From NCBI GenBank assembly GCA_000467715.1, contig AJFK01000311.1:1-64000 (forward strand): a stretch of 64,000 nt of DNA. The letters are read 5' to 3'. A program made the position numbers and the translations under genes. The stretch comes from Hysterium pulicare CBS 123377. Taxonomy: Eukaryota; Ascomycota; Dothideomycetes; Hysteriales; Hysteriaceae. This document shows positions 621-61,231 of the stretch, piece after piece (the first letter of the stretch is position 1; every line of letters begins with the position of its first letter). The notes under the pieces are model-generated. The model made no database searches. It was not told the origin of the DNA and worked only from the letters and a program-made list of their open reading frames with translations.

Positions 621-889
621 ACTAAGTACAAATAACTCTAGCAGTTTTCGGAGGCTTTATTAAATAGACTAGTACAACCAACGTTAGACTTTTGGACCCC
701 TGAACCCCTGAAAGATTTTTTGCGCTAGCCTGCCTTGCCACCGCTTGTTGAATGTCAACCTCAGTTTGTTGGTGTTGCTGTCTCGCTAGAGAGAGAGTTC
801 CTAGGCTGCGGTATCCAATAGGATATAATTTCATTTCTGTATCAAGTTTCTAACACAAACGGTGAGATGGCCGAGTTGGTTATGGCGCC

Positions 890-940
890 GTCAGTCCACA
901 CCCTCCTCACTTGTCAAATTGTTTCTAACTTTATTCACAG
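890..940 (+). other. Spliceosomal-intron-like 51-bp insertion inside the tRNA gene
   Basis: The insert starts GTCAGT, a donor also used by protein genes in this window (hmgA, COX19, azgA), has a perfect fungal branch site TTTCTAAC (922-929) with the branch A at 928, and ends TTATTCACAG, the AG lying 12 nt after the branch A. Its length matches nearby mRNA introns (49-58 nt). It lies in the anticodon stem, not at the 37/38 site used by the tRNA splicing endonuclease. What is seen is the sequence match; that it is a true spliceosomal intron is inference. Confidence 0.75.
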
Positions 941-949
941 AGGTTAAGG

Positions 950-965
950 TTACCTTAACATTAAT
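950..965 (+). other. Canonical tRNA intron (16 nt)
   Basis: This intron begins after the purine at tRNA position 37. Its CCTTAA (953-958) is complementary to TTAAGG (944-949), which contains the anticodon, giving the anticodon-intron helix typical of eukaryotic tRNA introns cut by the SEN endonuclease and rejoined by Trl1, whose gene lies 1.8 kb downstream. Confidence 0.85.
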
Positions 966-1047
966 TCCTGGTCACGAAAGTGGCGTGGGTTCGAGTCCCA
1001 CTCTCATCAATATTCGTATCGAATTCCAATTCGATTACACCTGGAAG

Positions 1048-1056
1048 TTTTTTTTT
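1048..1056 (+). terminator. RNA polymerase III T-run terminator
   Basis: Nine consecutive T residues start 39 bp after the tRNA discriminator base. T-runs of this length on the non-template strand end Pol III transcription. Confidence 0.75.
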
Positions 1057-2792: not shown

Positions 2793-5288
2793 TCAAAGTC
2801 TCTGCAAGACCCCCCTTACACTCCCCTCCAGGACCACATTCCCCTTCATAGACAACTCTCCAATTCCGCTTCCCTCTCCGCTTCCCTCTTTCAACCACCG
2901 CTGCAGCAAATCATTGCTCTCTTTTGGCTTGATGCTCTGATTTGCCGTTCCTACCGTGACATGCGCTACTGCATTGACACTCTGAAATGGTATCTCCTCT
3001 CCGCCTCCTTCATTCTTCAACATTGCGGATCCATTCAGGCGCACCACGAAACACATAACGCGATTATCCCAGACCACTCGTTCGAGCTGGACATTACATT
3101 TTCCAAGTTCAGGTTCCATGGAAGCTTCGGCGTACGAATTCGAGGTGAAGGAGGCATGCAGACGGGCGAGTTTATCCCATTCTCCGGCACGTTGGGTGGC
3201 AGAAGCGCGATGGATGAGTGTAACATGGAATTCGGGCTGAACGCGTCGCGTCTGGTGGAGCTGGCGGTAGACTTTTGCGGTATTGGGGTCCTGATCTTTG
3301 AAGAGGGCATCGAGGATGGCATTGACACGGGGAGCGGGGAGGCGGACGGAGAAGTATTCTAGTTTGGGGGACTTGGCGGGTTTGGAAGCAGTGCCATTCG
3401 CTGACTGGTTCTGCGTTTGGCGTTGTTTATTTTGCTGCTGGGGTTGTTTTGCCCACTTCCCACCAGTACGGCTGAGGTCCATTTTGATATCGGGGGCGTA
3501 GTCATTGAGGGCTGATTCGATGGCTTCATCAAGGTCGTCGCCGGTCGGCATGTCGGTGAAAATTTTGGGGTACTCGTTATGCAGCTTTTCTACGATGACT
3601 TCGAGATTGTCTCTCGAGGAGGCGACGGGGTCGAGGTCGATGACTAGATCGAAGGCATCGTCGGGAGGCTCGCTAGTATCGATGGGCTGGAATCGATGCA
3701 TGAAGCCTTCCATGATTTCGATGATCTCGTCCGGTCCCTTTGAGCCTGCTTGGATGGTTTGATGGTTGTCGCCACGAGCTAGCACGCGGTCTCGAGTAGC
3801 TTTACGAATGTTATCGTAATTGGAGCGTTCGTGGACATAATGTAACGCCACGAATTTGGCCTCTGGAATGGTTTTGGAAATGTCATTGATCAACTGGTCT
3901 CGTTCGCGCTTCTGATGGTTGTTCCTATCTGCGATGACCACAGGATGCGGGGTCATCAATGCGCAGACAGAGCTGGCAAAGACCTGGGGACGATTTCTCT
4001 TGGTTTGAACGTTGTCATTTTGGAAATGGCCCCAACCAAATAGCTTCACCAGTGCAAGTGCTAAAGTTGTCTTTCCGCATCCAATTGTGGCCGCAGGGAC
4101 GAGGACAATGTTGTGTGTGACCTCTTTGGAGTTGATCTCGCCATTCTCCATTTCCTGGCGAATAATGTCTGAGCCCTTCAGCCCCCGCTCGGCGAGGAAG
4201 TCATCTCGGAGTGCGATAATACCGTGGTTCTGGTTGTATTTTTTCGAAAGTCCTGGTTCTCTAGCAAAGCGTCGTCTGGCATACTGGAGATATTCTTCCG
4301 TAACATTCTTGTGCTTCTTGAACCGAGGGGGTTTGCCTGCTATGATAGCTTTTGTGCATTCTCGCCACTGCCGGTACATCAAGTATGGTTCCTCGAACTT
4401 GTACTTGAAGAACCAGTCCTCCCATGGCGAATCTGCCGTCTCCCTTGCTTGACACCGGACAACGAATCCTTCTGTATCACGACCAGCATAATTGCCTGTT
4501 TCTGCCACCTGATCGAGGAAAGTCTTGACGTTCGTTATGTCGTCCTCCATCACGTACATGACCTTTTTCATTCCCCACTCGTCGGCGAACTTGGCGACTA
4601 GATGTCCAGGGTACGTGGTGAATTCTGGAAGATTGAGATTGATACCATGGACGTATAGGCCGGCGGTTTCGGGGGTGTATGCTAGCACGTGCTCTTCAAA
4701 AGCATCATCGCACAACTCGGCCACACACGTCGCATTCATTTCTCTCAACGCCTTTGCCAGCTCTTCCTTTGTCTTGCCCACAGTCGCCAGATGTCTCTCC
4801 ACCCAGCGCTCCCCAGCAACAGCATGACTGAGCTCCACATCTCCCCTAGCACCAGTCGAATGCTTGCTACACACGAGCAAGGTGCCATCATCAAGTCCTG
4901 AGATGAATATGATACACCCGTTTTCTTTCACGCTCAATTCATAGGGCCCCCGCGTATGAGTCTCGACATTCCGCCACTCGGTCTTCCTGACCTCGTTGAC
5001 ATTGAAGAACTTGTCGTATCCTCGTACCGCGATCTCGTCTTTGTTGTCCAGGGTGACGTATGTGAAGAGACCTCGGGCGTATGTTGGAAGGTTGGGCTTC
5101 TTGTAGTCCCAATCCTGCATTTTCCACGAATCGACAGAGCGGCCATTGGAGAGTTGGAAGGTGGATTTCTTCACAGAGAAGCCTCCTCCACCTTTGCCTT
5201 TCTTCTGGTGCGAGGAGAGTGCCTGGACGAGCTGCTTGATCTGATGGGGGTCTTGAGGACAATGCGGGGCCTTTTCGCGGTGGGCCAT
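2793..5288 (-). CDS. trl1: Fungal tRNA ligase Trl1
   Basis: Single-exon gene, 831 aa, close to the usual fungal length. Trl1 joins tRNA halves after intron removal and, in fungi studied, also the HAC1 mRNA of the unfolded protein response. Three domains are visible in order. The N-terminal adenylyltransferase has the KxxG nucleophile motif KENG with Lys121, motif IV EGFVVR (273-278) and motif V FKYKF (294-298). The central polynucleotide kinase has P-loop TIGCGKTT (401-408). The C-terminal cyclic phosphodiesterase has the 2H pair HVT at 688-690 and HVT at 776-778. All catalytic signatures are intact. A Q/N/K-rich linker (about 610-642) separates kinase and CPD. The start ATG at 5288 is the first in frame and precedes the conserved N-terminus. 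It lies 1.8 kb from a tRNA gene with an intron, probably by chance. Confidence 0.95.
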   Translation of the reverse strand: MAHREKAPHCPQDPHQIKQLVQALSSHQKKGKGGGGFSVKKSTFQLSNGRSVDSWKMQDWDYKKPNLPTYARGLFTYVTLDNKDEIAVRGYDKFFNVNEVRKTEWRNVETHTRGPYELSVKENGCIIFISGLDDGTLLVCSKHSTGARGDVELSHAVAGERWVERHLATVGKTKEELAKALREMNATCVAELCDDAFEEHVLAYTPETAGLYVHGINLNLPEFTTYPGHLVAKFADEWGMKKVMYVMEDDITNVKTFLDQVAETGNYAGRDTEGFVVRCQARETADSPWEDWFFKYKFEEPYLMYRQWRECTKAIIAGKPPRFKKHKNVTEEYLQYARRRFAREPGLSKKYNQNHGIIALRDDFLAERGLKGSDIIRQEMENGEINSKEVTHNIVLVPAATIGCGKTTLALALVKLFGWGHFQNDNVQTKRNRPQVFASSVCALMTPHPVVIADRNNHQKRERDQLINDISKTIPEAKFVALHYVHERSNYDNIRKATRDRVLARGDNHQTIQAGSKGPDEIIEIMEGFMHRFQPIDTSEPPDDAFDLVIDLDPVASSRDNLEVIVEKLHNEYPKIFTDMPTGDDLDEAIESALNDYAPDIKMDLSRTGGKWAKQPQQQNKQRQTQNQSANGTASKPAKSPKLEYFSVRLPAPRVNAILDALFKDQDPNTAKVYRQLHQTRRVQPEFHVTLIHRASATQRAGEWDKLARLHASFTSNSYAEASMEPELGKCNVQLERVVWDNRVMCFVVRLNGSAMLKNEGGGEEIPFQSVNAVAHVTVGTANQSIKPKESNDLLQRWLKEGSGEGSGIGELSMKGNVVLEGSVRGVLQRL

Positions 5289-5767
5289 GGCTGCCAGATA
5301 GCGTGTTCGCCCTGTTGACAGTAGATATTGTAAATGTTGAAGCGGTCAACCAGCTGTGTCTTCGGGATTACCTGGGATAACAAGGCGCGTCGAATGCAGC
5401 GAGGGTGGAAGCAAGAGGGCTTTAAAAGCCTGAGTTGCCATTCAGGCAGCCACTTGTTCCGAGTCTTGTTGAGGGCGCAAACACCGAAGAGGCGGAAAGG
5501 GCGCAGCTGTGGCAGACATGCAGCGTTGGAGTCACCTTTATTTTCTTCGCTTGCATACGACGTCAGGTGGGGGATCGCAGCAACCAGCAACCAGCAACCA
5601 GCACCCAGCAATCACAGTCACAATTATCTTCACTTGAACATGGGCAATTACATGTCACTCAATCGTGTTGATTGGACTGTGTAAATACATATCCGCTAAG
5701 CTGAACGACAGTTGTAAAATACCCCCCAGTCAACTCCAGATACACGTACAAGAACAATTCACCCGTT
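5289..5767. other. hmgA 3' end to trl1 promoter
   Basis: Short intergenic region holding the trl1 promoter and the hmgA 3' UTR. It contains a 7-bp tandem repeat, three exact AGCAACC units and two variants (5579-5613). No gene seen. Confidence 0.6.
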
Positions 5768-58907: not shown

Positions 58908-61231
58908 TCAAGGTTTCAAGTGAATCTTCTCGGGGCTGGGTGGTCCAATGACCACAGCCTCAAGTCCTTTGTCAGACTCCTTCGATCCTGTGCGAAAATG
59001 CTGTTGGGAGTTCCCACTTCCAAAAGACCCCGATTCATTGATATCTTTAGAAGAGCCGTGTCCGAAATGAGAGGCAACCTTTTGGCTCGCGGTGATAAAC
59101 CAAGGAAGTCGGCCGTTTGGTGTGACTTGACGTTTAGGTTAGGGAACAGCCTGCGGCGGGCAGATTAGGAGGGGATGCCACTTACTGGTCCAGTACTCCC
59201 GATTATCTTCATCTTCAGGGACGATGCGACCTCTCGAGATGAGTTTGGTAAGGTAAATGGGCCCGTTTAGGGCTGCATACGTCATCAGGCCGCTTGGAGA
59301 AGTTAGACCCGATTGAAATGGGAGGGTTCCGACGACGAAAGACTTACGCAATCAGGCCATAGGCAGCGCTGTACCCAAAGGGAATGAACATGACAGTGAC
59401 AAAGGCAGGGACGGCATCGCCAATCTGGACTATGCGTTAGCGCTTGTGTCAGTGAGGCTGGAAGTTGTGACTGACATATCGCCAGTTTACATTGACAATT
59501 TGACGCATCATGAGACATCCGACGATTACTGCAACTATGTTAGCGCTTGTGCCAGTGCCAGTCGTCCTAAATGTCGTGACTAACCCAAAGTTGATCCTGT
59601 TGCCCAGGGGGGTATGGATGCGAAGATGGGAGCGAAAAACATGGAGATGAAGAAGCAGATGCCGCAAGTCATGGCGGTCAAACCGGTCTTACCGCCCTCA
59701 GCGATACCAGCCCCAGATTCGATGAACGCGGTAACCGGAGAACTGCCAAACAGAGCGCCAACGGAAATGCAAAATGCATCGGTGCAGTACGCTATGGTGG
59801 AGCGCGGGAAGTCCCCGGACTGTTGATCTACAACGCCCGAAAAGCGGGCCATGCTGTAGAGGGTGGCGGTACAGTCCACGATGTCAATGAACAGGAAAGT
59901 AATGAGCGCGAGGGCGAATTCTGCGGGCGCTTTGGCGGCGTCCCAATCCAACACATTGAGTGTTTTATCGATAGGATGGAAGCTTGCAACCTTCTTGAAG
60001 AAGTCGAAACGGTCGTTGCCAGCTTCATTATGGGGAAAGTAGGTGAACGATGTTCCTCGGCTAGACGGGGCTTAGTGTGTTTCGTACTTCTTCGTTTCAA
60101 CCAACTTACGGCCAAGAAATGATGGACACCAGTGCTATACCAACAATGATTGCGCTTTTGACCTTGAAAGCCATGAGGTAGGCCGTGACGATGCCTCCAC
60201 AGAAGATACCAATCCACATCTGTAAACCAGATGTATAAGTCAGGGGAGATGTACAGTTAAGGTTTGGCTTGATCTCGCCTCGCAGTAGCGTTGGGTCAAA
60301 CTCACAGCGGGATTGGTCATCTTATGACTCGTACAGAATCCGTTCGCATCTAGGTATTGAGGCGGGCAGCCACCAATATCCAATGGCGTTGAACTCGACC
60401 CAGTAATGGCACCAATGCCGGCAGAGTAGCTCAACCCTATCTCAGCAAGAAACAATCCAATACCACAAGCGCTAGCAATCTTGATGGACGTGGGAATGAG
60501 TTTCACCAGCCATTGTCTCATGCCAAGCAGAGCGAGGAAGATGAAGATGAAACCTTCCGTAAAGACGGCAGTAAGTGCAAGACGGTAGGAAATGATGCCA
60601 GTTCCGTGGTAACCAACCACTTGATATGCAAAGTAAGCATTCAAGCCTTGACGTCTCTTGTTAGCGAGCGCGACACATACTAGTAGGCAGGAGGACATAC
60701 CCATCCCCGGAGCAAGGCACACGGGCATGTTTGTTGTAAAACCGAACAAGAAAGAACTGAAGCCTGCAATTGCGGCAGTAGCTGTGATCAGATCACGATG
60801 CAAATCTATACCGCGTGAGTAGGGACTTTAATGGGATAGAGCGCATCATTGATTACCTTGAACACATGCAGCATAAGCGGCATCTGTTGCGCATGTTGGA
60901 TCTTTTGCATCATTGCAAACACAGGTACCCCCAGTGTCTGAGAGAATTGTGGCCTTCAATAGTTAGTCATAGTACGAAGACAGCGATAGGGACGTACATT
61001 AACGGCGATGATGTATGCCATCGTGAAGAATGTAGTTAAGCCAGCTCGGATCTCCGTTAAGAATCTGGTATTCTTGATTTCATTTTCCTGCGACTGGGTC
61101 AATATGCAAGCTGCCGAAGCGCGATGAGTTATGCTTACATGTCCCGAACCTTGGAGGCGAAATATGCGTCCGAACGTAGATGCACCCACCGCCTCATTGA
61201 TGGAGGAACAGAGCCGACTGATGGAATCCAT
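58908..61231 (-). CDS. azgA: Purine permease AzgA (hypoxanthine-adenine-guanine/H+ symporter)
   Basis: AzgA-family plasma membrane importer for adenine, guanine and hypoxanthine. Exons: 61139-61231, 60998-61087, 60857-60953, 60701-60805, 60306-60646, 60110-60219, 59585-60060, 59476-59534, 59348-59424, 59186-59292, 58908-59125; 590 aa, in the family range. All phases agree. Blocks seen: FLTEIRAGLTTFFTMAYIIAVNA, DTGGTCVC, GFTTNMPVCLAPGMGLNAYF, FLAEIGLSYSAGIGAIT, FLFIDIVDCTATLY, FGSSPVTAFIESGAGIAEGGKTGLTA, FGYSAAYGLIAGLMTYAALNG. At least ten hydrophobic segments are evident. The C-terminal exon (FITASQKVASHFGHGSSKDI) is hydrophilic. Start ATG 61231 gives MDSISRLCSSINEAVGAS, similar to known AzgA N-termini. 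Confidence 0.95.

Follow-up and report, generated by a model that had tools for sequence, protein, structure and literature searches.

The locus at 861-1009 raises the question of whether a nuclear tRNA gene can carry, besides the usual intron at position 37/38, a second intron of the kind that the spliceosome removes from mRNA precursors. The window in which it lies (the whole 64-kb stretch of DNA that was analysed) is likely to be nuclear DNA of a filamentous fungus, as suggested by its short introns, a RIP-like stretch and fungal protein genes, among them those encoding a fungal tRNA ligase, Dna2, a Mak21-like protein, a CwfJ-like protein, NPR3 and others.

Results

A putative tRNA-Leu(AAG) gene with two interruptions

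Rfam recognised a tRNA on the forward strand over the whole length of 861-1009, at 38 bits (gathering score 29), and this was the only Rfam match at the gathering score across the 64 kb. ARAGORN found no tRNA at the locus in bacterial mode, and in intron mode it read the intact gene as a tRNA-Arg(CCT) whose anticodon stem is imperfect and which is broken by a 71-nt intron. We rejected this single-intron reading on account of the imperfect stem and of the long variable arm, which is the mark of a class II tRNA. When 890-940 was removed in silico, ARAGORN returned a tRNA-Leu(AAG) with a 16-nt intron at 950-965 (position 37/38), and removal of both introns left a plain 82-nt tRNA-Leu(AAG) according to the same program. 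Of the 24 stem pairs drawn for the spliced tRNA (acceptor, D, anticodon, T and variable stems), every one is standard, two being G-U, and the resulting cloverleaf has a long variable arm, the anticodon AAG and A73.

The original prediction had placed a tRNA-Leu(AAG) gene at 861-1009, and its coordinates and letters proved to be as described, with Rfam, ARAGORN and stem pairing in agreement. Its further claim of a 'perfect 82-nt tRNA-Leu' appears sound from the pairing, from ARAGORN and from inspection by eye of the positions that are invariant in tRNAs. The locus thus reads as a nuclear tRNA-Leu(AAG) gene interrupted twice, the product of which would be charged with leucine (Table 1).

Of the two interruptions, the shorter is the canonical 16-nt intron that had been foreseen, located by ARAGORN at 950-965. 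The anticodon loop can pair with it through an inverted repeat (943-950 and 952-959), and pairing between anticodon and intron is a trait of classical pre-tRNAs. The segment therefore combines the 37/38 position with the anticodon-intron pairing of a canonical SEN intron.

Table 1. Features of the putative tRNA-Leu(AAG) locus and its flanks, in window coordinates.
Feature	Position	Strand	Evidence
TATAAT, TATA-like element, 37 bp upstream of the tRNA	824-829	+	sequence
Exon 1: acceptor 5' strand, D arm, G26, anticodon-stem positions 27-28 (CC)	861-889	+	Rfam, ARAGORN
Putative A box of the internal Pol III promoter, TGGCCGAGTTGG	868-879	+	sequence
51-bp insert with mRNA-type intron anatomy, between tRNA positions 28 and 29	890-940	+	
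Candidate donor, GTCAGT	890-895	+	
Candidate branch site, CTAAC, branch A at 928	925-929	+	
Candidate acceptor, CACAG	936-940	+	
Exon 2: positions 29-31 (AGG), TT, anticodon AAG, G37	941-949	+	ARAGORN
Canonical tRNA intron, 16 nt, position 37/38	950-965	+	ARAGORN, inverted repeat
Exon 3: T38, stem CCTGG, long variable arm, T arm, acceptor 3' strand, A73	966-1009	+	ARAGORN, pairing
Putative B box, GGTTCGAGTCC	988-998	+	sequence
T9, likely Pol III terminator	1048-1056	+	sequence

The second interruption has the anatomy of an mRNA intron

The insert at 890-940 reads GTCAGT...TTTCTAAC...CACAG over 51 nt, with 12 nt from A928 to G940. Every hallmark of an mRNA intron that had been claimed for it (the GTCAGT donor, the CTAAC branch site, the CACAG acceptor, the branch spacing of 12 nt and the length of 51 nt) is indeed present, and the segment shows U2-type anatomy, with GT...AG ends, a donor hexamer and a branch site at the proper distance from the acceptor. 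It departs from consensus at three places: the donor is not of the strongest kind, since C stands at +3 and also at exon -1, and the branch pentamer is preceded by T; the fungal branch consensus is given as RCTRAY in the available part of PMC5832005.

The limits of the insert can be set by the tRNA itself. Stretches of 0-89 nt with starts at 881-920 were deleted in 3,600 trials, and each product was read by ARAGORN. Some tRNA was called in 2,007 of the 3,600, most commonly Arg(CCT) (1,037), and other leucine anticodons appeared as well (TAA in 28, CAA in 12 and GAG in 3). Leu(AAG) was taken as the expected product because no other call combines the canonical intron with a full stem, and it was obtained from only 12 of the 3,600 deletions, all of them 50-52 nt long and starting at 888-894; the tRNA alone, without any splice rule, therefore places the insert to within a few bases. 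Among these 12, the deletion of 890-940 is the only one that starts with GT and ends with AG. A boundary at 891-941 (stem CCGGG, with one G-U pair) also gives Leu(AAG) but lacks GT-AG ends.

How often such a segment would arise by chance was gauged with a strict rule (GTNNGT, a CTRAC whose A precedes the last base by 7-20 nt, and YAG) and a loose one (GT...YTRAY...AG). As the sequence had already been seen when both rules were chosen, the counts are guides rather than clean p-values: among 127,900 51-bp segments on both strands, two match the strict rule (the insert and one homology-supported intron) and 71 the loose one, while letter shuffles of the insert matched in 0 of 200,000 cases (strict) and 32 of 200,000 (loose). 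With length left free (42-100 nt), the window holds 20 strict pairs, two of which lie in the tRNA gene (890-940 and 875-940), and splicing at the competing pair 875-940 would ruin the tRNA. The presence in the tRNA gene of a segment with the anatomy of an mRNA intron is confirmed and exceeds chance.

The other strict 51-bp match, 59425-59475 (-), lies in a gene for an AZG1-like purine permease, and allows a comparison with an mRNA intron of the same genome. Retained, it introduces in-frame stops; spliced out, it gives a protein that aligns without a gap across the junction to AZG1 (PDB chain 8irl_A, E 1.4e-54) and lets the Pfam permease match reach profile position 385 instead of 364, its score rising slightly (60.7 to 62.9 bits). 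These Pfam and AZG1 comparisons used the stretch downstream of a further intron near 60059-60107. The permease intron and the tRNA insert have in common the donor GTCAGT, the length of 51 and the branch distance of 12, and both carry CTAAC and CAG, so that the signals and length of the insert match those of an mRNA intron of its own genome. Four further host introns were tabulated, with donors GTTAGT, GTGAGT, GTAAGT and GTAAGG and branch distances (best motif) of 11, 20, 11 and 13, respectively; one of them, 59529-59584, is supported by the AZG1 alignment and the remaining three by open frames on both sides. The branch-to-acceptor distance of the insert (12) can thus be set against 11-20 in the five host introns (best motif).

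Origin of the insert

The original prediction had also suggested that the insert was a recent gain, through an introner or a reverse-splicing event. This part found no support in the window. A BLAST search of the insert within the 64-kb window returned no copy, the best match outside the insert being 12 nt long (E 0.13), and in a comparison with 17 candidate introns of the window the lowest p values (0.0035 and 0.0045) were non-significant after correction for 17 tests. Four of these 17 had p <0.05 where one was expected, which points to at most a weak family resemblance between the insert and the introns of the window. No target-site duplication or terminal inverted repeat was seen by eye at the insert ends.

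Exact scans of viral contigs gave 0 matches for three patterns and three loci (L002-L004) for one; these lie in dense tRNA clusters, L004 together with a bacterial RNase P RNA, and are uninformative on the present locus. The same is true of the single locus (L001, in a bacterial MAG) found in one scan of genome contigs.

The two neighbouring introns of the AZG1-like gene, 59425-59475 and 59529-59584 (-), are alike over most of their 3' halves (CACTGRCACAAGCGCTAAC). Their alignment score of 23, against a shuffle mean of 4.9, was reached by 0 of 2,000 shuffles, which suggests a local intron duplication or an introner-like event behind their likeness.

Pol III signals and genomic setting

The A and B boxes and the Pol III terminator that had been predicted appear to be in place, at 868-879, 988-998 and, for the T9 run, 1048-1056; the two boxes were assigned from consensus motifs. 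The T9 run begins 39 nt past the tRNA end, and no run of at least four T occurs in 821-1047. Between the tRNA and the T9 run lies a perfect 8-bp inverted repeat (ATCGAATT / AATTCGAT, 1018-1035) with 2 nt between its arms. A 9-mer, GTTTCTAAC, is present both in the 5' leader of the tRNA (846-854) and at the branch site of the insert (921-929); it occurs three times in the window against 0.40 expected, and no role was found for it.

The window provides 860 bp of sequence upstream of the tRNA. Its first 600 bp (1-600) are AT-rich, with a GC content of about 0.21-0.23 and RIP-like dinucleotide ratios (TA/AT about 2, (CA+TG)/(AC+GT) about 0.1), and about 260 bp separate this stretch from the tRNA locus. 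The nearest identified gene, on the opposite strand, is that of the fungal tRNA ligase (2793-5345, -), an enzyme with ligase, kinase and phosphodiesterase domains that carries out the last step of tRNA splicing. About 1.8 kb lies between this gene and the doubly interrupted tRNA, a proximity that is probably due to chance.

Discussion

Probable processing of one precursor by two splicing systems

The most likely reading of the locus, and one that we consider probable from its anatomy, is that a Pol III pre-tRNA would lose the 51 nt to the spliceosome and then the 16 nt to SEN and tRNA ligase. Using the A and B boxes, Pol III would transcribe the locus as far as the T9 run. The nuclear spliceosome would then remove the insert, with U1 on GUCAGU, U2 on UUCUAAC and a lariat at A928, joining 889 to 941; this would restore the five-pair anticodon stem CCAGG/CCUGG and permit the normal fold of the pre-tRNA. 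Going by what is known of their families, SEN would next cut out 950-965, and the fungal tRNA ligase would join 949 to 966.

That the spliceosome would act first is suggested by folding predictions, in which the D and anticodon stems hardly form as long as the insert is present. Without the insert (98 nt), the D stem has a predicted mean pair probability of 0.247 and the anticodon stem one of 0.637; with it (149 nt), the values are 0.001 and 0.002. Observations made elsewhere point to the same order. As described in the accessible part of PMC3978253, the yeast endonuclease recognises its substrate by the mature domain and by the pairing between anticodon and intron, so that the 51-nt insert should leave first. 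The folding z-score is unremarkable for the intact precursor (-0.73); it is -2.50 without the insert and -2.56 without both introns. It speaks against the proposed reading that folding does not give the cloverleaf as the minimum, not even once the tRNA is spliced (-30.1 against -32.7 kcal/mol). On the order of removal, PMC3978253, as far as available, also places SEN on mitochondria in budding yeast, which would impose the same order by compartment, although the observation is budding yeast's and not this fungus's. In the red alga Cyanidioschyzon, the 37/38 intron is reported there to be the last substrate, and the cuts to be of BHB type (PMC3978253, in part).

Alternative explanations

The main rival holds that the locus is an interrupted, non-functional Leu(AAG) copy, in which an intron-like segment has landed, no productive splicing occurs and intact copies elsewhere supply the tRNA. 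Fungal tRNA genes are usually multi-copy, and the loss of one of several would be tolerable. The AT-rich, RIP-like stretch about 260 bp away and the failure of ARAGORN to call Leu on the intact gene both fit such a copy, and if a copy that the cell can spare had been hit very recently, the picture would be the same. However, the gene shows no decay, since the 24 stem pairs, the A box, the B box, the anticodon-intron pairing and the T run are all in place, and splice ends that fall exactly at the exon boundaries are not what would be expected of a random insertion. We therefore regard an inactive copy as unlikely, but as the explanation to be taken most seriously after splicing of a Pol III transcript.

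A second possibility is that the insert is spliced from a Pol II read-through transcript, from which the tRNA itself is not made. This would be possible in principle, and the insert does resemble an ordinary mRNA intron, but no ORF of at least 100 aa starts before 2703, the AT-rich stretch occupies 1-600 and the tRNA ligase gene lies on the other strand; we consider it very improbable.

Marginally less credible still is a non-canonical tRNA intron that SEN would cut at a BHB-like structure, as in red algae or archaea. Endonuclease-cut introns at other tRNA positions do exist in Cyanidioschyzon, according to the part of PMC3978253 available. At the ends of the insert, though, the central helix has 0 of 4 pairs, in a weak test by which the canonical intron scores 2 of 4 with the same geometry, and the donor, branch and acceptor signals would all have to be coincidence. 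Least probable of all is an assembly or sequencing artefact, which would hardly give rise to 51 nt that carry host-type intron signals and sit in the tRNA with single-base precision.

Relation to other interrupted RNA genes

Splicing of a tRNA precursor by the mRNA pathway has a precedent in an engineered yeast construct: Koehrer, Vogel and Domdey reportedly obtained it in 1990 with a tRNA precursor into which an mRNA intron had been introduced. That construct was artificial, whereas the tRNA with an mRNA-type intron described here is natural.

Among natural genes, the closest parallels are other small structured RNAs of fungi and fungal rRNA, which serve as precedents for spliceosomal removal from structured RNAs or from RNAs not made by Pol II. 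In the available text of PMC10484740, the U6 gene of fission yeast has an mRNA-type intron, and U6 snRNA genes of fission yeast and other fungi resemble the present locus in that a Pol III-transcribed small structured RNA carries an intron with spliceosomal signals. Unlike the tRNA, U6 is a part of the spliceosome, and reverse splicing is the presumed source of its intron; the tRNA has a SEN-type intron in addition. Fungal U3 snoRNA genes are also small structured non-coding RNA genes with GT-AG introns, found in the vast majority of the Pezizomycotina analysed in PMC5832005, but U3 is not a tRNA and involves no second splicing system. The same paper names U3 and U6 as the only small structured RNAs so far known to be often interrupted by introns (PMC5832005). 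The nuclear rDNA of lichen fungi offers a further likeness, with mRNA-type introns of similar size (57 bp in one that was tested) in an RNA not made by Pol II, and yeast removes one such lichen spliceosomal intron from Pol I rRNA transcripts (PMC8527467, in part); here the RNA is rRNA and the polymerase Pol I.

Introns of tRNA genes themselves are of another type. The 16-nt intron at 37/38 belongs to the SEN/BHB class, which in red algae also occurs at other positions (PMC3978253, in part). The 51-nt insert differs from such ectopic introns in having spliceosomal signals and, by a simple and weak test, no BHB at its ends. The description of tRNAscan-SE 2.0, in its available part, deals with non-canonical introns as a feature of archaea (PMC8450103). 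A nuclear tRNA gene with a natural spliceosomal intron was reported neither in the titles and abstract openings of the open-licence matches listed nor in the available portions of PMC8450103, PMC3978253, PMC5832005, PMC4494063, PMC10484740, PMC8527467, PMC11782384, PMC9860276, PMC13130702 and PMC12730881. As far as the open-licence matches listed go, the locus would thus add to the spliceosomal-type introns of structured RNA genes not transcribed by Pol II the first in a nuclear tRNA gene.

Significance

If the insert is spliced, the locus would be a natural proof that the spliceosome acts on a Pol III pre-tRNA before the folding of the tRNA is complete, and would indicate that intron gain reaches tRNA genes. 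Programs that search for tRNAs would then be liable to overlook genes of this kind or to give them the wrong identity, as ARAGORN did here in returning Arg(CCT) or nothing. The junction of 889 to 941 offers a cheap test case for the order in which two splicing systems act on one molecule. Beyond the removal of the two introns as such, we give about even chances to the fuller proposal, namely that this is a natural nuclear tRNA whose maturation goes through the spliceosome and then SEN and tRNA ligase in an obligatory order, and whose supply would therefore be coupled to the capacity of the spliceosome.
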